From Fermentimonas sp. (GTDB lineage Bacteria; Bacteroidota; Bacteroidia; Bacteroidales; Dysgonomonadaceae): a stretch of 64,000 nt of DNA. A model generated the notes under the pieces. It was not told where the DNA came from, did no database searches, and worked only from the letters and a program-made list of their open reading frames with translations. The DNA is taken from positions 248,001 to 312,000 of the forward strand of contig JAQVXD010000001.1 of the NCBI GenBank assembly GCA_028709385.1. The letters are read 5' to 3'. Positions 14,193 through 36,876 of the stretch are shown here, in pieces; the first letter of the stretch is position 1; each line of letters opens with the position of its first letter. Both the position numbers and the translations under genes were made by a program.

Positions 14193-15488
14193 TTATAGTA
14201 TGACTTCTGACGCTAAAATCATTTTTTTCTTTATTTCGTCGCTACATAGATTGCCTATACTGCCTGCATGAGTATGATTAACCATTTTATCAGCTTTAAA
14301 AGTTCCCTCCTGTACCTCTTTTCCTATCTGCTGATATGCTTCACGGAAAGGGATACCTTGTAAAACAAGGTTGTTAACCTCTTCAACAGTAAAAAGGTAG
14401 TCATATTTCGGATCAGAAAGTATATCATTATTTACACTGATATTCTGAAGCATGAAATGAGACATTTTCAGAATAGTATGCAGAGTTTCAACTGCAGGGA
14501 ACAGTACCTCCTTCAGTAGCTGGTAATCCCGATGATAACCATGTGACATATTGGTTGTCATCATTGAGATTTCATTGGGCAGACTTTGTAAACGGTTACT
14601 GTGAGCCCTTATCAGCTCCCATACATCCGGATTCTTTTTGTGCGGCATAATACTCGATCCGGTGGTCAGTTCTTTCGGGTAAGATATAAATCCATAATTC
14701 CCTGAAAGATACATGCAGTTGTCAGCAGCCAGTTTATTCAGTGTAGAGGCAATATTAGCCATACTTTGCGCCAGAATACGTTCTGTTTTACCCCGTCCCA
14801 TTTGCGCTGCTATTACATTGTAACTCATCGTATCAAAGCCAAGCTCTTTAGTTGTCATCTCCCTATCAAGCGGGAAAGAGCTGCCATAACCAGCAGCAGA
14901 ACCAAGCGGGTTTTGATCGGCTACCTTCCATGCAGCAGCCAGTGAGTGCATGTCATCTACTAATGATTCTGCGTAAGCACCAAACCATAAGCCGAATGAA
15001 GATGGCATGGCAATTTGTGCATGAGTATAGCCCGGAATAAGGATGTCTTTATGCTCTTCGCTAAGTGACTGTAACAGATCAAACAGTTGCAGAACCTCCT
15101 GTTTAATCAGCTGAATCTCCTCCTTCAGATATAGTTTTATGTCAACCAATACCTGATCGTTCCGGGAGCGTCCGGAATGAATCTTTTTGCCTATGTCTCC
15201 CAGTCGCTCTGTCAGCATAGCCTCAATCTGAGAGTGGATATCTTCAGCATCATCATCGAGACTGAAATTGCCCCTTTCCACCTCTGTCAATATGTTTTGC
15301 AGTTCTGAGCGAAGTGATTTTTCTTCATCCTCACCAAGCAGACCAATCTTCACCAGCATTTTTATATGCGCCATCGATCCTTTTATGTCATGTTTTGCAA
15401 GACGCAAGTCCAGTTCTCTGTCATTACCTACTGTGAAATCTTCCACCAGCTTGTTAGCATCAAAGCCCTTATCCCATATTTTTGCCAT
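14193..15488 (-). CDS. argH: argininosuccinate lyase
   Basis: Last step of arginine synthesis: argininosuccinate to arginine and fumarate. 431 residues from the ATG at 15486-15488 (MAKIWDKGFDANKL), which fits the usual family start; a TTG at 15521 would add 11 residues and overlap argE. Superfamily motifs: SGRSRNDQVLVD, the GYTHAQIAMPSSFG block and the signature GSSIMPHKKNPD containing the catalytic Ser loop. Final gene of the arg operon. Confidence 0.96.
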   Translation of the reverse strand: MAKIWDKGFDANKLVEDFTVGNDRELDLRLAKHDIKGSMAHIKMLVKIGLLGEDEEKSLRSELQNILTEVERGNFSLDDDAEDIHSQIEAMLTERLGDIGKKIHSGRSRNDQVLVDIKLYLKEEIQLIKQEVLQLFDLLQSLSEEHKDILIPGYTHAQIAMPSSFGLWFGAYAESLVDDMHSLAAAWKVADQNPLGSAAGYGSSFPLDREMTTKELGFDTMSYNVIAAQMGRGKTERILAQSMANIASTLNKLAADNCMYLSGNYGFISYPKELTTGSSIMPHKKNPDVWELIRAHSNRLQSLPNEISMMTTNMSHGYHRDYQLLKEVLFPAVETLHTILKMSHFMLQNISVNNDILSDPKYDYLFTVEEVNNLVLQGIPFREAYQQIGKEVQEGTFKADKMVNHTHAGSIGNLCSDEIKKKMILASEVIL

Positions 15489-15513
15489 ATATCTTGTATT
15501 CAATAACTGATTT

Positions 15514-16593
15514 TCAGTCAAAGTTTTTTGTTAGTTGTGATATAAAACCGATATAACCTTCAATCCCCTGCTCAAGTTCCTTGATAAGCACAAACTCATC
15601 AGCCTGATGAGAGCGGGCCGATTCACCCGGGCCCATTTTGATTGCAGGACAGGTAATTCTCATCCAGTCGGAGGTAGTAGGAGATGTGTAAGTTTCAATC
15701 TTCAGCTGATCTATGCACTTCATTAGTAAATGATTTTGCGGAGTTGCGGAACTTCTGTTTGAAAGATTACGAGCTTTAAGTTCACTTTTCACCAAAGGTT
15801 GCAGAATATCCATAATCTCGCTGTTGCTGTATTTCTCCGTTGGCCGTATATCAACAACAAAGCTGCAGCGGTCGGGTACCACATTATGCTGTGTGCCCGC
15901 TTCTATTTGAGTTATAGTCAGCTTTACCTCACCCATAGTTGGCGAAATTTTTTCAAATTTCACCGATCTTAAAGTACTTATATCATCATGTGCAATGTAA
16001 AGCGCATTTACACCCTCATCGCGGGCTGCGTGACCGCTTGCACCTATTGCCATGCCATCAATAACCAGTAATCCCCGTTCAGCTACAGCAGTCCTCATTC
16101 CGGTAGGTTCCCCTATAATTGCCATATCCACCTCATTCCTCAGTTTTTCCCATAAAAGACGCATACCTCCCGGTCCTGAATTCTCCTCTTGAGTTGAAAG
16201 TGCCAGCAACAGATTAAAAGGCATCTGTGTGTTGTAGAAATGTAGAAAAGTCTGTATCATAGAAACCACACTTGCCCCGGCATCATTGCTTCCCAGTCCG
16301 TACACATGAGTATCAGATATTTCGGGATTAAAGGGATCGAAGGTATAGCCTGAGGCCGGTAAAACGGTATCCAGATGTGAGTTGAGCATTAAGGTAGGTT
16401 TGCCTGCATTATGAAAAGCCTGACGGAAAATTAGATTATTTCCTATCCTTTCTGCAAAAATACCTTTTTGCTTAAAATAATCTGCCAGAAAATCGCTGCG
16501 CAACTCCTCATGCCCGGAATATGACTTTAATGACACCAGTTTTCTGAGTAAATCAACAACACTATTTATTCCACTATTACTATTATCTGCCAT
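15514..16593 (-). CDS. argE: M20 deacylase acting on N-succinyl/acetyl-citrulline (ArgE type)
   Basis: 359-residue zinc peptidase-fold enzyme. Metal and catalytic residues: H73 and D75 (NSHLDTV), D104 (GSNDAGA), E136/E137 (TQEENSG). With a succinylornithine transcarbamylase in the same operon, the substrate is probably N-succinyl-citrulline rather than acetylornithine. It ends 25 bp before the argH ATG and starts 10 bp after argB. Acyl-group preference is inferred from context, not from visible residues. Confidence 0.88.
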   Translation of the reverse strand: MADNSNSGINSVVDLLRKLVSLKSYSGHEELRSDFLADYFKQKGIFAERIGNNLIFRQAFHNAGKPTLMLNSHLDTVLPASGYTFDPFNPEISDTHVYGLGSNDAGASVVSMIQTFLHFYNTQMPFNLLLALSTQEENSGPGGMRLLWEKLRNEVDMAIIGEPTGMRTAVAERGLLVIDGMAIGASGHAARDEGVNALYIAHDDISTLRSVKFEKISPTMGEVKLTITQIEAGTQHNVVPDRCSFVVDIRPTEKYSNSEIMDILQPLVKSELKARNLSNRSSATPQNHLLMKCIDQLKIETYTSPTTSDWMRITCPAIKMGPGESARSHQADEFVLIKELEQGIEGYIGFISQLTKNFD

Positions 16594-16603
16594 TTCAGTA
16601 AAG

Positions 16604-17419
16604 TTAATTCAATACAGTTCCTCTTCCTGTTAAAAGATTTTTTGCATGAAGGATTTTCACCTCCGAAACACCCTGCGAGATAGCATTGAAAGAGTTATAT
16701 AATTTTGGAATCATTCCATCAGCTATCACACCCTGCTGAATAAGTTTATCATACTCTTCAAGGTTGATTCTCTCTATAAGGCTCACAGGATCATTTACAT
16801 CCATAAGTACACCCTCTTTCTCGAAGCAGTAATAAAGCACTGTTTTATATTTTTCAGAGAGAGCAGTTGCAACAGTATAAGCAATTGTGTCGGCATTTGT
16901 GTTGAGAAGAGTACCGTCGCCATCATGCGTAATTGCGCAAAATACCGGTATTATGTCATTTTCAACTAAGAGAGAAATGAAGCTTTTATTAACCTTTTTA
17001 GGGTCAGGATCGCCAACAAAACCAAAATCAACAGGTTTAGGAGAACGACGAACGGATGGAATAGTGTTCGCATCAGCACCTGATAATCCAATAGAATTAC
17101 AACCAAGCTTTTGAAGAGAAGCAACAATGTTTTTATTGATCAAGCCGGCATAAACCATAGTAACAAGCTTCAGTGTTTCTGCATCAGTTATTCTTCTGCC
17201 ATCCACTTTCTTAGTCTCTATACCAAGCTGTTCAGACATTTTTGATGCAACTTTGCCACCGCCGTGAATCAGGATTTTTAGTCCTTCAAGTTTATTAAAA
17301 TCAGTGAGAAACTTATCTAATTCTTCAGGATTATCAACAATATTACCTCCGATCTTTACAATTGAAAGCTTCTCTTTATCCCTGTTTTGAATATTTACAT
17401 CTTTAGTTCCCATTCTCAT
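16604..17419 (-). CDS. argB: N-acyl-glutamate kinase
   Basis: Amino-acid-kinase fold enzyme that phosphorylates N-acetyl- or, here, probably N-succinyl-glutamate. 271 residues. Motifs: LSIVKIGGNIVDN, LIHGGGKVAS, VDGRRITDAETL, GLSGADANTI and TLLNTNADTIAYTVA near the ATP site. Starts at ATG 17417-17419; a second in-frame ATG two codons later is equally possible. Separated from argF' by a 244-bp gap with an unusual inverted-repeat element, but reads in the same direction. Confidence 0.93.
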   Translation of the reverse strand: MRMGTKDVNIQNRDKEKLSIVKIGGNIVDNPEELDKFLTDFNKLEGLKILIHGGGKVASKMSEQLGIETKKVDGRRITDAETLKLVTMVYAGLINKNIVASLQKLGCNSIGLSGADANTIPSVRRSPKPVDFGFVGDPDPKKVNKSFISLLVENDIIPVFCAITHDGDGTLLNTNADTIAYTVATALSEKYKTVLYYCFEKEGVLMDVNDPVSLIERINLEEYDKLIQQGVIADGMIPKLYNSFNAISQGVSEVKILHAKNLLTGRGTVLN

Positions 17420-17663: not shown

Positions 17664-18617
17664 TTATAAATCCTTTAAAATCTCTTTAAGTATCACTTGT
17701 GCAGAAACTACTCTGTTTGCAGCTTCAGGAATTACGATTGATTGAGGCCCTTCAATTACCTCATCACTAACAATCATATTGCGGCGTACCGGCAGGCAGT
17801 GCATAAAATAAGCATTATTGGTAAGAGCCATTTTATCAGAGTCTACAGTCCACGACCGATCAGTACTTAAAATCTTTCCATAATTGGGGTCCTGGTATGC
17901 AGCCCAGTTTTTTGCATAAATAAAATCAGCACCCCTGTATGCTTTCTCTTTGTCATATTCAACAACAGCATTTCCAACAAACTTTTCATCCAGTTCATAA
18001 CCTTCAGGATGGGTAATCACGAACTCATAATCTGCAGCATTCATCCACTCAGCAAATGAGTTCGGAACCGCCTGCGGCAAAGCCTTGGGGTGAGGAGCCC
18101 ATGTGAGTACCACTTTTGGGCGCTCCGTTTTTTTATACTCCTCAATTGTAATCAAGTCGGCAAAACTCTGAAGAGGATGACGGGTAGCTGCCTCCATACT
18201 GAACACGGGTCGCCCTGAATATTGTATAAACTGATTAAGAATCACCTCGTTATAATCATCAGCCTTGTTCGCGAACTGAGCAAAGGAGCGCACGCCAATG
18301 ATATCACAATAAGAGCCCATTACAGGGATTGCTTCAAGAATGTGTTCAGGTTTATCACCATCCATAATTACTCCTCTTTCGGTTTCGAGTTTCCAAGCCC
18401 CCTGATTAATATCAAGTACAATTACATTCATTCCCAGATTCAGACCGGCTTTCTGTGTGCTCAGGCGGGTACGCAGACTCGAATTAAAGAATATCAGCAG
18501 TAATGTCTTATTCTTTCCCAGTTCCTGATCTGCATAAGGATGCTCTTTAACAAATTTAGCATTCTGCAAAGCTAAATTCATATCACCTATATCATGTACG
18601 GATGTAAAGTTTCTCAT
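17664..18617 (-). CDS. argF': N-succinylornithine carbamoyltransferase
   Basis: 317 residues. Transfers the carbamoyl group to N-succinyl-ornithine. The carbamoyl-phosphate loop is FFNSSLRTRLST rather than the STRT loop of ordinary OTCases, typical for the acyl-ornithine class. Residue 90 is Pro (GDKPEH); in the characterised B. fragilis enzyme Pro90 marks succinylornithine use, while the Xanthomonas acetylornithine enzyme has Glu at the matching place. Position and context agree, so succinyl specificity is likely. Other motifs: ATRHPLQSFADL, HCLPVRR. Follows argD by 5 bp. Confidence 0.93.
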   Translation of the reverse strand: MRNFTSVHDIGDMNLALQNAKFVKEHPYADQELGKNKTLLLIFFNSSLRTRLSTQKAGLNLGMNVIVLDINQGAWKLETERGVIMDGDKPEHILEAIPVMGSYCDIIGVRSFAQFANKADDYNEVILNQFIQYSGRPVFSMEAATRHPLQSFADLITIEEYKKTERPKVVLTWAPHPKALPQAVPNSFAEWMNAADYEFVITHPEGYELDEKFVGNAVVEYDKEKAYRGADFIYAKNWAAYQDPNYGKILSTDRSWTVDSDKMALTNNAYFMHCLPVRRNMIVSDEVIEGPQSIVIPEAANRVVSAQVILKEILKDL

Positions 18618-18622
18618 ATCAT

Positions 18623-19747
18623 TTATTTTAATTTATTTGCCAGTTCATTAATAAAAATATCAATCTCCGCTTTAGAAATTGAGAGAGGAGGCAGAAGACG
18701 CATAATGTTGTTTTTTGCTCCACCTGTAAATATATGACTTTCGAACAACAAACGGTTGCGTACAGTTGAATATTCATGTTGAAATTCAATTCCAAGCATC
18801 AAACCATTACCACGGATCTCTTTAATACCTTTGATGTTGAGCAGCTTCCCTTTCAGATATTCGCCCATTAAAGCAGCGTTTTCAACCAAAGACTCATATT
18901 TAATCACATCAAGAACCGCAATTGCAGCTGCACAGGCCAGATGATTACCTCCAAAGGTTGTGCCCAGCATTCCCTTTTTTGCTTCAAATTTCGGAGAAAT
19001 AATTACTCCCCCAATAGGGAAGCCGTTGCCCATACCTTTTGCAACAGTTATTATGTCTGGTTTAATACCTGCAAACTGATGAGCAAAAAATTTTCCTGAG
19101 CGACCGTAACCAGATTGAATCTCATCAACTATCAAAGGCACATTGTGTTTCTTGCAGAGTAAGTCGAGTTGCTGCAGAAATTCAGTTTCGGGAACAAATA
19201 TACCCGCAACACCCTGAATACCTTCTATAATTACAGCTGCTACATCACCTTTATCTAACTCAGACTCTACAGAAGCAATGTCGTTAAGTGACACGAAAGT
19301 AACGTCATGTCCACTATTAAAAGGAGATTGAATATTTGGATTGTCAGTAATGGACACAGCACCTGATGTGCGACCATGAAATGCTTCTTTGAAAGCTATT
19401 ACACGACTCTTTCCGGTATAAAATGATGCCAGTTTGAGTGCATTTTCATTTGCCTCAGCACCAGAGTTACACAGAAAAAGTGAATAATCAGGATAACCAC
19501 ACTGCTCACCCAATTTTTGAGAAAGCATTTTCTGTAGCGAGTTTTGAACTGAGTTTGAGTAAAAACCGATTTTCTCTGCCTGGTCGCTAATCGCTTTTAC
19601 ATATACCGGGTGTGAGTGTCCTATAGAAATAACTGCATGACCTCCGTAAAAGTCTAGATATTCATTACCCTCTTTATCCCATACACGACAACCCTTAGCC
19701 TTTACCGGTTCAATATCCCATAAACTGTACACATCAAATAGTTCCAT
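18623..19747 (-). CDS. argD: N-acyl-ornithine aminotransferase (ArgD)
   Basis: Class III PLP aminotransferase, 374 residues. PLP lysine K237 in TVAKGMGNGFPIGG, Asp D208 in VDEIQSGYGRSG that holds the pyridine nitrogen, and NSGAEANENALK (about 94-105) that binds PLP phosphate. Converts N-acyl-glutamate semialdehyde to N-acyl-ornithine using glutamate. N-succinyl substrate is inferred from the transcarbamylase next to it. Confidence 0.94.
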   Translation of the reverse strand: MELFDVYSLWDIEPVKAKGCRVWDKEGNEYLDFYGGHAVISIGHSHPVYVKAISDQAEKIGFYSNSVQNSLQKMLSQKLGEQCGYPDYSLFLCNSGAEANENALKLASFYTGKSRVIAFKEAFHGRTSGAVSITDNPNIQSPFNSGHDVTFVSLNDIASVESELDKGDVAAVIIEGIQGVAGIFVPETEFLQQLDLLCKKHNVPLIVDEIQSGYGRSGKFFAHQFAGIKPDIITVAKGMGNGFPIGGVIISPKFEAKKGMLGTTFGGNHLACAAAIAVLDVIKYESLVENAALMGEYLKGKLLNIKGIKEIRGNGLMLGIEFQHEYSTVRNRLLFESHIFTGGAKNNIMRLLPPLSISKAEIDIFINELANKLK

Positions 19748-19835: not shown

Positions 19836-20810
19836 TTAAAAACTACTCCCCTTAAGTTTCAATCCAAGAGATTCATCAAAACCAAACATAAGATTCATAT
19901 TCTGTACAGCCTGACCGGATGCCCCTTTTACCAGGTTGTCAGTTATTGAAGTTATATGTATGTAACCGTTGTGAAATTCAATATGGAGCAGACATTTATT
20001 AGTATTCACAACCTCCTTGAGACTGATGGGTTTGTCAGAAACAAAGACAAAAGGCGAATCAGCATAATATTCTTTAAAGAGTGTAATTGCATCATTATTA
20101 GAGATGTCTCCGTTCCATTTTGTATATATACTTGCAAATATACCGCGTGTAAAATCTCCCCTCACAGGCACAAAATTGATTTGAGGTAGATTATTGTTTC
20201 CGGCAGAAATCAAAGTGTTGCCAATTTCTTCAAGATGCTGATGTGTAAAAGGCTTGTAGACAGATATATTATTATCGCGATAACTGAAGTGAGTTGTTTC
20301 ACCCGGTCTTTTACCTGCACCTGTAGAACCTGTAATAGCGTGTATGTGAATCTCATCTGCAATCATATTTTTAGATGCCAGAGGTAACAGCGCAAGCATT
20401 ATTGTTGTGGCAAAACATCCAGGATTGGCAACATTATCTGCTTTTTTGATCTCTTCACGGTACTGCTCACATAAGCCAAATACAAATTTTCTGTCACCAA
20501 ATTCAGGTTGGTTGCGGAAGTCATTGCCCAGATCAATAACTTTACAGCTTTCAGGCAACTGATTCTTCTCAAGGAATTCTCTTGAGAGACCATGACCAAG
20601 GCATAAAAAGATAATATCAGGATTATTAAATGTATCGCTGTAGATAAGATCAGTTTCACCCAGCAGATCCCTGTGTACGTCTGATACAGACATTCCAACC
20701 GATGTTGTGCTGATTACCGACTCAATATTTACTTCCGGATGTCGTAGCAGGATACGCAAAAGTTCTCCCGCCGTATATCCTGTTCCTCCTGCTATACTTA
20801 CATTAATCAT
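19836..20810 (-). CDS. argC: N-acyl-gamma-glutamyl-phosphate reductase
   Basis: 324 residues. NADPH-dependent reductase; Rossmann motif AGGTGYTAGELLRIL at the N-terminus, catalytic C132 in NPGCFATT, and the C-terminal VKGASGQAVQNMNLMFG helix that is a family hallmark. Its ATG overlaps the argG stop by 8 bp, indicating translational coupling. An 88-bp gap leads to argD. Confidence 0.96.
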   Translation of the reverse strand: MINVSIAGGTGYTAGELLRILLRHPEVNIESVISTTSVGMSVSDVHRDLLGETDLIYSDTFNNPDIIFLCLGHGLSREFLEKNQLPESCKVIDLGNDFRNQPEFGDRKFVFGLCEQYREEIKKADNVANPGCFATTIMLALLPLASKNMIADEIHIHAITGSTGAGKRPGETTHFSYRDNNISVYKPFTHQHLEEIGNTLISAGNNNLPQINFVPVRGDFTRGIFASIYTKWNGDISNNDAITLFKEYYADSPFVFVSDKPISLKEVVNTNKCLLHIEFHNGYIHITSITDNLVKGASGQAVQNMNLMFGFDESLGLKLKGSSF

Positions 20811-21993
20811 TATCGTGAATTGTATAATAAATTTTCAAAGGATTTGCATTCACTTTTGTGAATCCTACCACATCCTGTCCAGTAAATGATTTATTGCTTT
20901 CGCCATACTCACCGAATCTTGAGCTCATAAGATCAAATTCGCTTGAGCAGCCCAGTACAGAGAAGTGATATGGGCGAAGCTCGATTTCCACTTCTCCGGT
21001 TACATATTGCTGAGTGTCGTCGAGGAATGTCTCTATATTACGCATAACCGGTTCAAGATATTGAGCCTCATGCATAAGCTGTCCATACCAGTTGGAGAGC
21101 TGATCTTTCCAGTAGAGCTGTTGTTTGGTGAGTACATGTTTTTCCAGAAGATGGTGTGCCTTAATAATAATAAGAGGTGCAGGGGCTTCGAAAGCAACCC
21201 TGCCTTTTGTTCCGATTATTGTGTCACCAACATGTACGTCGCGTCCAATACCATACTGTGATGATATTTTATGCAGTTTATGAATCAAATCGACCGGTTC
21301 CATTTTGTTTCCATTGAGTACTACAGGTTCACCTTTATCAAAACCGATAGTAATACGCTCTGATCCATGATTTACAACCTGTGACGGATAAGCCTCTTCA
21401 GGCAGTACGCCTGATGATTTAAGTGTTTCAACACCACCAACACTTGTGCCCCATATTCCCTGGTTTATTGAGTACTTTGATTTTTCCCATGAGAAATCAA
21501 ACCCTTTATCTTTAAGGTAGTCTATCTCCTGCTGGCGAGAAAGGCTAAGTTCACGAATAGGTGCAATTATTTTAACTTCGGGAGCAAGAACCTCAAATAC
21601 CAGGTCAAATCTTACCTGATCGTTTCCGGCACCTGTACTTCCGTGTGCAACGTAATCAGCACCTGTTTTTCTTACATGTTCAAGAACTGCCATTGCCTGA
21701 AAGAAACGCTCAGAGCTTACTGAAAGAGGATAAGTGTTGTTTTTTAACACATTGCCAAAAATCAGATACTTTATACCATTATTATAATAATCATTCACAG
21801 CATCTATACATGTATGAGTTGCAGCACCTAATTTTAGTGCACGCTCCTCAATTTTAGTTGCTTCTTCATCAGAGAATCCGCCCGTATTTACTATAACGGT
21901 GTGTACTTCTAACCCTTTCTCATTAATAAGATAGGGGACGCAAAACGAGGTGTCGAGACCGCCGCTGAATGCTAAAACTACTTTCTGTTTCAT
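20803..21993 (-). CDS. argG: argininosuccinate synthase
   Basis: 396 residues; ATP-pyrophosphatase family enzyme joining citrulline and aspartate. PP-loop AFSGGLDTSF at the N-terminus, GNDQVRF in the middle and the SVGGVETL segment. The visible length and motifs place it in the short ArgG form common in Bacteroidetes. Overlaps the upstream GNAT gene by an ATGA junction and downstream argC by 8 bp. Confidence 0.94.
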   Translation of the reverse strand: MKQKVVLAFSGGLDTSFCVPYLINEKGLEVHTVIVNTGGFSDEEATKIEERALKLGAATHTCIDAVNDYYNNGIKYLIFGNVLKNNTYPLSVSSERFFQAMAVLEHVRKTGADYVAHGSTGAGNDQVRFDLVFEVLAPEVKIIAPIRELSLSRQQEIDYLKDKGFDFSWEKSKYSINQGIWGTSVGGVETLKSSGVLPEEAYPSQVVNHGSERITIGFDKGEPVVLNGNKMEPVDLIHKLHKISSQYGIGRDVHVGDTIIGTKGRVAFEAPAPLIIIKAHHLLEKHVLTKQQLYWKDQLSNWYGQLMHEAQYLEPVMRNIETFLDDTQQYVTGEVEIELRPYHFSVLGCSSEFDLMSSRFGEYGESNKSFTGQDVVGFTKVNANPLKIYYTIHDND

Positions 21994-22607
21994 TTCTTAT
22001 ATAATTTATTTGGTTTTCTTGTTTTGATTACCGGCTTAACTACTTTTTTTGCAAAAGTGCTTGGCTTCTGTGCTGCAGGGTCTTTAGGATCATAAAGCAA
22101 GCCTGTGCAAAGACACATTTTGAAACTGTTACGTTGCAGAATATCATAATTTCTGCAACCCTTACATCCGTTCCAAAACTCCTCATCATCTGTCAGTTCA
22201 GAAAATGTGACAGGTTTGAATCCAAGCTCAGTGTTCATTTTCATAACAGCTAAGCCTGTAGTTATGCTAAATATTTTAGCATTAGGATATAGCTTACGAG
22301 AAAGATCGAAAATCTTCCTTTTTATTTTTTTTGCCAATCCCTGATTACGGTAGTCAGGATGCACAACCAATCCTGAGTTGGCAACAAATCGTTGGTGACT
22401 AAAAGTTTCAATATATGAAAAGCCTACCAGTTTATCGCCATCGAGAGCGATAACTGCTTTGCCTGCCTCAATTTTTTCTGATATATACTCTGCACTACGT
22501 TTGGCAATACCTGTGCCACGTGCTTGTGCTGATTCGTAAATCAAATCACATATTTCCTGAGAGTAACTTACAAAACTGCTGTTTGCAATATGAATTTCTA
22601 CATTCAT
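21990..22607 (-). CDS. GNAT acyltransferase, candidate N-acyl-glutamate synthase, with C-terminal Cys cluster
   Basis: 205 residues, first structural gene of the arg operon. GNAT acetyl-CoA motif is VVHPDYRNQGLAKKIKRK (about 82-100). There is no argJ or classical argA here, so this gene is the natural first enzyme, acylating glutamate with acetyl- or succinyl-CoA. I recall that a homologous GNAT in the B. thetaiotaomicron arg cluster was implicated genetically in this step. Unusual for GNATs are four C-terminal cysteines (CX2CX13CXC), which could hold zinc or an Fe-S cluster, followed by a basic tail KTRKPNKLYKK. Confidence 0.78.
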   Translation of the reverse strand: MNVEIHIANSSFVSYSQEICDLIYESAQARGTGIAKRSAEYISEKIEAGKAVIALDGDKLVGFSYIETFSHQRFVANSGLVVHPDYRNQGLAKKIKRKIFDLSRKLYPNAKIFSITTGLAVMKMNTELGFKPVTFSELTDDEEFWNGCKGCRNYDILQRNSFKMCLCTGLLYDPKDPAAQKPSTFAKKVVKPVIKTRKPNKLYKK

Positions 22608-22647: not shown

Positions 22648-22706
22648 TCGCTTTAAAGCGAAAAAAATAAAAACATGGAGGGATACAGTCAACTTATCGG
22701 CTGTAT
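22648..22706 (-). promoter_or_regulatory. folded arg leader RNA downstream of the leader peptide
   Basis: Just past the leader-peptide stop the minus-strand RNA can form a 6-bp hairpin (22706-22701 with 22688-22683). The GACUG at 22690-22686 can instead pair with CAGUC at 22735-22731 inside the peptide codons, so the two folds exclude each other. A U-rich run (22673-22661) and a 14-bp palindrome (22661-22648) follow. This is the layout expected for attenuation, though a GC-rich hairpin abutting the U-run is not obvious. Confidence 0.55.
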
Positions 22707-22709
22707 GAA

Positions 22710-22775
22710 TCAAGAGCGTCGTCGGACTAAGACTGCTGCCTGGTGAAGGTTTGTATGTGATAAAAACATTATCAT
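22710..22775 (-). CDS. arginine leader peptide of the arg operon (candidate)
   Basis: A 21-codon open frame: MIMFLSHTNLHQ, then AAVLVRRRS and TGA. Three consecutive Arg codons (CGA CGA CGC, 22724-22716) lie just before the stop, followed by alternative RNA folds and then the arginine biosynthesis operon. This is the classical arrangement of an amino-acid leader-peptide attenuator. Start at 22775 would be almost leaderless given the -7 box at 22790-22783; the next in-frame ATG at 22769 is also possible. I did not find a named family; the call rests on position and codon content. Confidence 0.7.
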   Translation of the reverse strand: MIMFLSHTNLHQAAVLVRRRS

Positions 22776-22782
22776 AGAAATG

Positions 22783-22815
22783 CAAAAGTAATAATAATAA
22801 TTTAATAACCGCAAC
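22783..22815 (-). promoter_or_regulatory. promoter of the arg operon
   Basis: Minus strand: GTTG at 22815-22812 and TACTTTTG at 22790-22783 with 21 bp between, close to the Bacteroidetes consensus. Transcription would start near 22778, making a leader of about 170 nt before the first structural gene. Confidence 0.65.
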
Positions 22816-23017: not shown

Positions 23018-24349
23018 ATGGAAACAATTAAGTACAGAAATTATATTCTTAGGAATTATGCCGATTTACCCCAAATGAGCTCCCTTTCACAGGAGGAGCA
23101 GGAAGCCATCAAAATAGTTGGACAGGTTTTGCCGTTTAAAGCCAACAACTATGTTGTAGAACAACTTATTGATTGGAATAATGTTCCGAATGATCCTATT
23201 TATACTCTAACTTTCCCAAGAAAGGAGATGTTATCAAAGAAAAATTATAACGATGTGAAGTCTTATCTGGAGAAAGGAGATGAGGCAGCACTGAAACAGA
23301 AAGTCTTTGATATAAGGATGAAACTAAATCCTAATCCAGCAGGACAGGAAAAGAATATCCCGATGGTTGATGGCATTAAACTTCACGGAATGCAGCATAA
23401 ATATCGAGAGACAGTTTTGTTTTTCCCCAGTCAGGGTCAGACTTGTCACGCTTACTGCACATTCTGTTTTCGCTGGCCTCAATTTTCAGGAATGAATGAA
23501 CTGAAGTTCGCAATGAAAGAGGCTGATCTGCTCCAGAGATACCTTCTGAAACATCCTAAAGTGACAGATGTGCTTTTTACAGGAGGTGACCCGCTTACAG
23601 CCAAAACAAGTATAATGGCTGCATACATCGAACCACTGCTGACAAAAGAGTTTGATCATATAAGGAATATACGTATAGGAACTAAAACACTTGCCTATTG
23701 GCCATACAGATTCTTAACAGATAAGGATGCTGATGATCTGCTGAGACTTTTTGAAAAAGTGAAAAAAGCAGGTAAGCATTTAGCTTTCCAGTCACATTTT
23801 AATCATCCTGTTGAACTGTCAACTGATGCTGTCAAACAGGCAATATCCCGTATACAAAACACCGGTGCACAGATAAGGACACAATCGCCATTACTTCGCC
23901 ATATAAATGATGATGCGAAAATATGGGCCGATATGTGGAAGGAGCAGGTAAGACAGGGATTAATACCTTATTATATGTTTGTTGCAAGAGATACCGGATC
24001 TAAAGAGTTTTTTGATGTACCGCTCGAGAAAGCCTGGAATATTTTCCGTAAAGCATACAGTAATGTCAGTGGTGTTTGTCGAACAGTGAGAGGCCCAAGC
24101 ATGAGTGCCAGTCCAGGCAAGGTGCAAATCCTGGGAGTTACTGAAGTTAGCGGAGAAAAGGTGTTTGTTTTGAGATTTCTGCAATGTAGAAACCCCAAAC
24201 TAATTGATATACCTTTCTTTGCAAAATATGACAAAAAAGCAACCTGGTTTGATGAGTTAAAACCTGCATTCGGAGAAAAAGAGTTCTTCTTTGAGAAGGA
24301 TAATCTCTTAAGAAAGAACGGGAGAGATACTGATTTTATTTGGGAATAG
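23018..24349 (+). CDS. lysine 2,3-aminomutase-family radical SAM protein (KamA-like)
   Basis: 443 residues. Radical SAM [4Fe-4S] motif C143-x3-C147-x2-C150 (CHAYCTFC), GGDP motif at about 189-192, and a C-terminal K368 (SASPGKVQILG) where the PLP-binding lysine of lysine 2,3-aminomutase sits. D298 (LLRHINDD) matches the first lysine-binding Asp, but the second one appears to be R324 in an ungapped remembered alignment. Substrate is therefore uncertain: beta-lysine formation is the family default. Longer than EpmB (about 340), so not that protein. Single gene, divergent from the arg operon. Confidence 0.8.
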   Translation: METIKYRNYILRNYADLPQMSSLSQEEQEAIKIVGQVLPFKANNYVVEQLIDWNNVPNDPIYTLTFPRKEMLSKKNYNDVKSYLEKGDEAALKQKVFDIRMKLNPNPAGQEKNIPMVDGIKLHGMQHKYRETVLFFPSQGQTCHAYCTFCFRWPQFSGMNELKFAMKEADLLQRYLLKHPKVTDVLFTGGDPLTAKTSIMAAYIEPLLTKEFDHIRNIRIGTKTLAYWPYRFLTDKDADDLLRLFEKVKKAGKHLAFQSHFNHPVELSTDAVKQAISRIQNTGAQIRTQSPLLRHINDDAKIWADMWKEQVRQGLIPYYMFVARDTGSKEFFDVPLEKAWNIFRKAYSNVSGVCRTVRGPSMSASPGKVQILGVTEVSGEKVFVLRFLQCRNPKLIDIPFFAKYDKKATWFDELKPAFGEKEFFFEKDNLLRKNGRDTDFIWE

Positions 24350-36806: not shown

Positions 36807-36820
36807 CAGATATAAAACAA

Positions 36821-36876
36821 TGTGGAAAGATTTGGACTGCTTGCAACCACAGAAAAAAATGCTAAAACGATTTTCC
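36821..36876 (+). promoter_or_regulatory. candidate SAM-II riboswitch before metK
   Basis: The leader contains, in order, a 5-bp stem half TGTGG (36821-36825), GATTT (36829-36833), TTGCAA (36841-36846), stem half CCACA (36847-36851) and GCTAAA (36861-36866). These blocks and the distances between GATTT, TTGCAA and the closing stem match the SAM-II aptamer as I remember it (GAUUU, seven bases, UUGCAA, stem, then GCUAAA). The pseudoknot partner is less clear; GGA at 36834-36836 could pair with TCC at 36874-36876. Location before metK fits SAM sensing. Followed by a terminator. Confidence 0.62.

Follow-up and report, generated by a model that had tools for sequence, protein, structure and literature searches.

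Organization of the arg operon and its leader

The window, i.e. the whole stretch of 64,000 nucleotides of Fermentimonas sp. DNA that was analysed, was found to contain an arg operon on the minus strand in the order GNAT-argG-argC-argD-argF'-argB-argE-argH, preceded by a promoter, a short leader open reading frame (ORF) and two hairpins, H1 and H2 (Table 1). The GNAT acetyltransferase encoded by the first gene is likely to catalyse the N-acylglutamate synthase step, as judged from the operon context. The leader ORF ended with the codons CGA (22724-22722), CGA (22721-22719), CGC (22718-22716), TCT (22715-22713) and TGA (22712-22710), giving Val-Arg-Arg-Arg-Ser-stop as the C-terminal end of the peptide. 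The frame, hairpin and promoter, followed by an arg operon, had been described in an earlier note on this DNA, and its coordinates were all found to be exact on the minus strand.

Table 1. Positions of the leader elements and operon genes in the window
Feature	Position	Strand	Remarks
Promoter	22783..22814	-	TTG 22814-22812 (-33) and TACTTTTG box 22790-22783 (-7)
Expected transcription start zone	22775..22778	-	Predicted by applying the box position given in PMC9723704 to the window; leader ORF 5′ UTR of ~0-4 nt
Leader ORF MIMFLSHTNLHQAAVLVRRRS-stop	22710..22775	-	21 codons; ATG at 22775
Tandem CGA CGA, proposed stall site	22719..22724	-	Conserved Arg codons
Hairpin H1	22683..22706	-	Directly past the leader stop; ATACAG 22706-22701 pairs with CTGTAT 22688-22683, plus inner pairs; covaries
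Hairpin H2 TCGCTTTAAAGCGA	22648..22661	-	Short; covaries in own genus
GNAT acetyltransferase, first operon gene	21990..22607	-	Pfam GNAT; no NCBIfam match
argG	20803..21993	-	TIGR00032 above cut-off
argC	19836..20810	-	TIGR01850 above cut-off
argD-like aminotransferase	18623..19747	-	TIGR00707, E 1e-113, below cut-off
argF'-type N-acylornithine carbamoyltransferase	17664..18617	-	NF003384 above cut-off
argB	16604..17419	-	TIGR00761 above cut-off
argE/dapE-like deacylase	15514..16593	-	TIGR01910, below cut-off
argH	14193..15521	-	TIGR00838 above cut-off

The TTG upstream of the box is taken to be a consensus promoter element, and 7 nt were found between the TACTTTTG box and the leader ATG. A divergent gene for a KamA-family radical SAM protein (aminomutase-like; 23018-24349, plus strand) is located on the other side of the intergenic region that contains the arg leader. 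At the Rfam gathering score, no leader family was found at the arg leader; the only match, a SAM-II riboswitch, was located elsewhere in the window (36816-36875, plus strand).

Conservation of the leader ORF in the family

The nearest matches of the first gene among named records were from Fermentimonas and Proteiniphilum, followed further out by Petrimonas, Seramator and "Dysgonamonadaceae" records. A GNAT match was present in 95 of the 101 family genomes, one of which (G029) contained a fragment of 23 residues only. The 62 family loci (Fermentimonas/Proteiniphilum group, same operon type) are the GNAT places with at least 72% identity, excluding the G029 fragment; near-identical loci are not independent in the counts given below, and one genome (G026) yielded two loci, one of them Petrimonas-like, and is probably a mixed assembly. 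Tandem Arg codons in a leader ORF were found in 59 of the 62 loci. In 57 of them, the script recognized a TAnnTTTG-type box followed by a short frame containing Arg-Arg, and two (L070 and L074) were recognized by eye, whereas a 58th script match (L038) belongs to another family. Reading of the upstream DNA of the other three loci (L036, L037 and L069, all of own genus) revealed no Arg leader frame, and their genomes gave no ArgR match either, which was counted against the attenuator model. These three loci were found to retain the GNAT gene and the promoter box, followed by the presence of a different small hairpin sequence after the promoter. A search with the exact pattern in 295 genomes of the order proved too strict, giving four matches, i.e. 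the window, L038/L055 and two within coding frames. The sequence TCCGACGANGC was found at one further place in the own genome, but this lies within a tRNA-Arg gene.

The first two codons of the Arg run were CGA in 114 of 114 cases in the 57 leaders, although the search criterion was Arg-Arg and blind to the codon. CGA is a rare codon, accounting for 9 of the 207 Arg codons in 16 ORFs of the window. Of the 32 tRNA matches in the own, incomplete genome, 30 were read, and the tRNA-Arg anticodons among them were UCU, CCU and CCG only. The residue before Arg-Arg was V, L, I or F in all 57 leaders, and the position after it was occupied by Cys (47/57), Arg (8/57) or the stop (2/57), the conserved peptide core being [VLIF]-Arg-Arg, usually followed by Cys. 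The Arg-Arg-Arg described in the earlier note was found to be a local form of this Arg-Arg: a third Arg was contained in 8 of the 57 leaders (L001-L004, L068, L078, L079 and L080), and among the 35 own-genus leaders in L001-L004 only. Longer CGA runs were present in L078 and L079 (four each) and in L080 (three), as expected under codon sensing. A Ser/Thr-His near codons 6-7, partly conserved by eye, counts against pure codon sensing, which does not require it.

In fungi, arginine is sensed directly in the ribosome by the nascent chain of the arginine attenuator peptide. An arrest peptide of this kind, in which a nascent chain (Ser-His-x ... Val-Arg-Arg-Cys-Phe) would sense arginine itself and not tRNA charging, would agree with the length of exactly 21 codons in 38 of the 57 leaders and with the conserved residues on both sides of Arg-Arg. 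It is nevertheless quite improbable, as the peptide outside Arg-Arg differs between genera at most positions (by eye), the Arg run varies from 2 to 5, and what is conserved is the codon CGA, while other members of the class contain different peptides and other Arg codons. At the nucleotide level, UCCGACGA was found to be almost invariant in the family, as might also be seen in a protein-binding site on the RNA or a plain 5′ UTR hairpin with an incidental ORF; the open frame with its almost fixed start position, together with the Arg-Arg kept by Flavobacteriaceae with other codons, makes such a site highly improbable.

In the transcriptome of Flavobacterium psychrophilum (Bacteroidota), the TAnnTTTG box was mapped at -12 to -5 (PMC9723704). 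Between box and ATG, 34 of the 57 family leaders had 7 nt and another 20 had 8 nt (54/57 jointly), a result partly conditioned by the automatic parse, which demanded an ATG 5-13 nt past the box (L070 and L074 lie outside that range). The ATG being 7-8 nt past the box in 54 leaders, the leader ORF is therefore probably almost leaderless, with the AUG about 3-4 nt past the transcription start by analogy with the F. psychrophilum box position. The his leader of the own genome was found to contain its ATG 18 nt past the box, against 7 nt for the arg leader of the window.

Hairpins and ribosome position

In the 35 own-genus leaders (34 distinct), paired cells of H1/H2 amounted to 83.6% against 29-39% in slid controls, and the covariation score was 0.337 against 0.189 after shuffling, a value reached in none of the 500 shuffles, whereas two of the five measures were unexceptional against the shuffles (both-side changes, 89/500; further pair types, 132/500). 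The fold z of H1 was found to have a mean of -3.2 and to be below -2 in 47 of the 57 family leaders, and H2 was weaker across the family, with a mean of -1.97 and values below -2 in 27 of 57. The alignment of related leaders, which the earlier note had proposed as a check, was thus found to contain the conserved frame with its Arg codons beside a covarying stem in support of that note. A further hairpin around the Arg codons (H0) was foldable in many leaders and was rejected, being weak against shuffles (mean z -0.86, 57 leaders) and in different registers between genera.

The 3′ edge of the ribosome was set at +13 from the A-site codon, where stalls at Arg codons were located in PMC13009471. 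H1 began beyond this edge in 51 of the 57 leaders when the second CGA occupied the A site, and inside it in 52 of 57 when the stop codon did; both together, counted as H1 free at the second CGA with 4 nt or more covered at the stop, were found in 37 of 57. For the window leader, the edge would lie at ~22711 (first CGA), ~22708 (second CGA) and ~22699 (stop), as compared with 22706-22701 for the 5′ arm of H1. On this positional argument, a conserved RNA structure appears to be placed such that the position of the ribosome would decide its folding, and the switch is best sought in H1, which a terminating ribosome could mask.

Alternative pairing, terminators and the gap to the first gene

In the window, CAGTC (22735-22731) in the leader codons was found to be complementary to GACTG (22690-22686), and an ACAGAC/GTCTGT competition between codons and H1 was visible by eye in L005, L006 and L014. 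Over the 57 leaders, the pairing of the codons with H1 was no better than after shuffling of the codons, with a mean z of -0.23 (3′ arm) and +0.25 (5′ arm) and a 3′-arm z below -1 in 18/57, and the competition was rejected as a conserved switch. As this pairing was not enriched, no classical 1:2/2:3/3:4 switch is apparent. The leader-peptide attenuation proposed in the earlier note is well supported by comparison in its core idea of Arg codons and a covarying stem, but not in the competition between codons and hairpin.

The scan for intrinsic terminators, for which the own-genome his leader with its 11-bp stem and TTTTT served as positive control, gave none between the leader and the first gene of the window, and no U-run was found after H2 there. 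The strict scan was positive in 3 of 57 family leaders (0.6 in shuffled sequences) and 5 of 52 class relatives (0.6), and the relaxed scan in 14 of 57 (3.1) and 15 of 52 (3.3), respectively. A doubt about the exact terminator, voiced already in the earlier note, was right. A U-run was present after H2 in L007, L013 and L019, and none was found after H1 in Petrimonas-type or Seramator-type leaders. Two class relatives (L249 and L252) contained a strong intrinsic terminator just past the Arg-Arg leader, and a classical-looking form therefore exists in the class. Classical transcription attenuation, with H1 or H2 as the intrinsic terminator and the codon/H1 pairing as the antiterminator, is consistent with these two terminators, the U-runs after H2 and the excess of relaxed hits over shuffles; it is unlikely for the window operon in view of the few strict hits, with none in the window, the missing U-run past H1 in Petrimonas-type and Seramator-type leaders, the pairing that was not enriched and the own-genome his leader, which shows what a terminator looks like here. 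That his leader (L176, contig C43) lies upstream of hisG and was found to contain a textbook-looking attenuator, MKVKGFHHHHFQTCSQAR, followed by the presence of the 11-bp terminator and its U-run.

The gap from the leader to the first gene had a mean of 104 nt and contained 22% C against 12% G, with C exceeding G in 56 of the 57 leaders; in 28 other upstream stretches of 104 nt from the window, C and G were both 13%, and C exceeded G in 14 of 28. A C-rich, G-poor gap would suit Rho, and Rho-type termination within these ~100 nt, against which H1 would protect by folding, is tentatively put forward as a possible output. Translational attenuation, in which the stalled ribosome would refold the RNA and expose the GNAT start with no early termination, is somewhat unlikely. 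The short gap and the lack of a robust terminator would agree with it, and leaders gating translation through Arg codons are known from rbfL (PMC13009471) and orf34-speF (PMC6386406); however, the folds of 16 leaders, compared by eye, contained no structure at the GNAT start common to the clades, and a pairing between leader and GNAT start failed in the clade whose GNAT starts with MNVI (by eye). A pairing that would join the GNAT start to leader codons 5-8 was rejected, the MNVI clade having altered the target and not the leader (by eye).

Arg-Arg leaders beyond the family

Besides the own locus, 89 Bacteroidia loci were read, of which 7 contained an ArgR motif upstream and 82 were non-ArgR; the ArgR mark used here and in the reading of family loci is a motif of our own making and not a family search. 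In 52 of the 82 non-ArgR loci, a count that includes chance cases (about 9 expected), a short ORF was found with Arg-Arg close to its 3′ end; 30 loci contained none. Dinucleotide shuffles gave a mean of 8.95 (range 4-14) and the reverse strand gave 13 of 82. Arg-Arg was the commonest doublet in the short ORFs there, followed by Leu-Leu (24). The last Arg-Arg codons in the 52 loci were CGC (27), CGA (24), AGG (24), AGA (13), CGT (12) and CGG (4).

In Flavobacteriaceae, all seven loci read were found to contain other Arg-Arg leaders, e.g. MNTLKNKIRPSSPGLRARSNRRRF (L145), with mostly CGC/CGT codons and located near the promoter box. Six loci of the Flavobacteriaceae type (L144, L145, L146, L147, L177 and L180) contained a second conserved element nearer GNAT, CGTCGCCC or similar, with a short hairpin. 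This element can be read as Arg-Arg-Pro, often followed by a stop, and is possibly a second leader. In other families, the leaders of L199, L211, L203 and L235 ended with Arg-Arg...Pro-Arg-Ala/Val and contained CGA CGA, with a possible hairpin within the end of the frame. Bacteroidota-type GNAT genes were also found in a Taylorella asinigenitalis record (L142) and a Clostridiaceae record (L102), likely through contamination or misnaming.

ArgR and the two operon types

The own genome (88% complete) gave no match to ArgR in a search that was positive in 8 of 14 control genomes, including Bacteroides ihuae, and none was found in the leader-bearing genomes G008, G013, G015, G022 and G035 (99-100% complete). 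An ArgR match was present in 54 of the 101 family genomes. An ArgR-like gene was carried by 9 of the 39 genomes of the own genus and by 9 of the 10 in Petrimonas, which counts against a simple replacement story; in the two loci read of four, this gene was located away from the arg genes. These two genes (L267, 2695-3222; L269, 2740-3216) were preceded by Smr-domain-like and lipoprotein-like genes, named by eye.

In five genera of the same family (g26, g27, g191, g192 and g193), ArgR directly precedes GNAT. The ArgR-type family loci L081-L095 (15 read of 33 places) were found to contain the end of ArgR just upstream in 15 of 15 and a leader in none of 15. An ARG-box-like sequence at the GNAT start was rejected, its spacing being wrong against the consensus and the sequence being coding. 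A tree of 62 GNAT proteins contained 17 ArgR-headed rows and one other on its first side, and all 38 rows labelled leader-headed and six others on its second side, with a split support of 99/96; the rows were picked by hand, the root was placed at the midpoint and some branches were long (L038, L044, L198 and L242). The second side contains the leaders of the family, though the first contains members of the family too, and the ArgR-headed and leader-headed operon types therefore probably have separate histories, which may have arisen by transfer or by differential loss. ArgR as the usual control of arg genes, as the earlier note had it, holds for another operon lineage only: no match was found in the own genome and in the five near-complete leader-bearing genomes, though an ArgR-like gene is located elsewhere in other leader-bearing genomes. 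At the window operon, ribosome-mediated arginine attenuation most likely takes the place of ArgR, as far as can be read from the sequence.

Discussion

The genes for arginine biosynthesis are a standard textbook example of control by a repressor, and to our knowledge no leader-peptide attenuator has been described for an arg biosynthetic operon. Three marks of an attenuator were found at the present locus, i.e. consecutive codons for the end product in a short ORF, a position upstream of an arginine biosynthetic operon and, on the positional argument given above, the placement of the conserved RNA structure. The leader probably gates the arg operon by arginine-responsive, ribosome-mediated attenuation through stalling at tandem rare Arg codons. 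The conserved ORF, the CGA pair, the promoter spacing, the covarying H1, its geometry, the placement before the operon and the split from ArgR-headed operons were observed directly in the sequences.

Translation of the leader, stalling and the direction of control are what we infer from that arrangement. RNA polymerase would start a few nucleotides before the AUG, and translation of the 21-codon ORF would proceed with almost no 5′ leader. If charged arginyl-tRNA ran short, the ribosome would stall on the tandem CGA, three to four codons before the stop, leaving H1 downstream free to fold, and expression would proceed through to the arg genes. With ample arginine, the ribosome would reach the stop codon with its leading edge over the 5′ arm of H1; with this arm covered, H1 would not form in time and expression would be cut off. 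The output step is the least certain part of this model.

In the his, trp, leu and thr leaders of enteric bacteria, a short ORF with codons for the end product is followed by RNA hairpins before the operon. The arg leader has the same layout as these and as the his leader of the own genome, and differs from them in its amino acid, arginine, in its probably near-leaderless start and in that no strong intrinsic terminator and no conserved alternative pairing were found. Mycobacterial leaderless polycysteine ORFs are said (Canestrari, 2020) to be attenuators with a run of the codon for the sensed amino acid; they would share the codon run, and probably the leaderless start, with the arg leader, but concern cysteine and actinobacteria. 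ArgR-headed arg operons of Bacteroidales likewise contain GNAT near the head, but with ArgR immediately upstream and a separate GNAT lineage.

The orf34/speF leader of Salmonella (PMC6386406) contains two consecutive Arg codons, at which pausing alters the folding of the RNA with involvement of Rho; the consecutive Arg codons in a leader ORF are shared with the arg leader, whereas the target is ornithine decarboxylase and not arginine biosynthesis. The rbfL leader of Staphylococcus aureus contains rare Arg codons near the end of its ORF, as the arg leader does, and the ribosome stalls at +13 of them; there, however, a stalled ribosome covers the ribosome site that follows and thereby represses, and the target is a biofilm regulator, rbf (PMC13009471). 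Leader-peptide attenuation before amino-acid operons in general was noted for F. psychrophilum, which shares the phylum and the promoter type with the present leader, and the available part of PMC9723704 names no arginine leader. In a search of the open-access literature, as far as its texts were accessible, no arg biosynthetic operon of Bacteroidota was described as being preceded by an arginine leader.

It is plausible, though still a tentative proposal drawn from sequence comparison, that Bacteroidia contain two deep lineages of arg operons, one run by ArgR and the other by an Arg-codon leader with no repressor gene at the head, the Dysgonomonadaceae branch of the latter being near-leaderless, locked to tandem rare CGA and working, with no intrinsic terminator, through a single hairpin that would sense the ribosome position. 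With CGA fixed in this way, the sensing of a specific codon can be tested directly. If true, a class-wide arginine leader would explain the control of arginine in Bacteroidota that do not contain ArgR.
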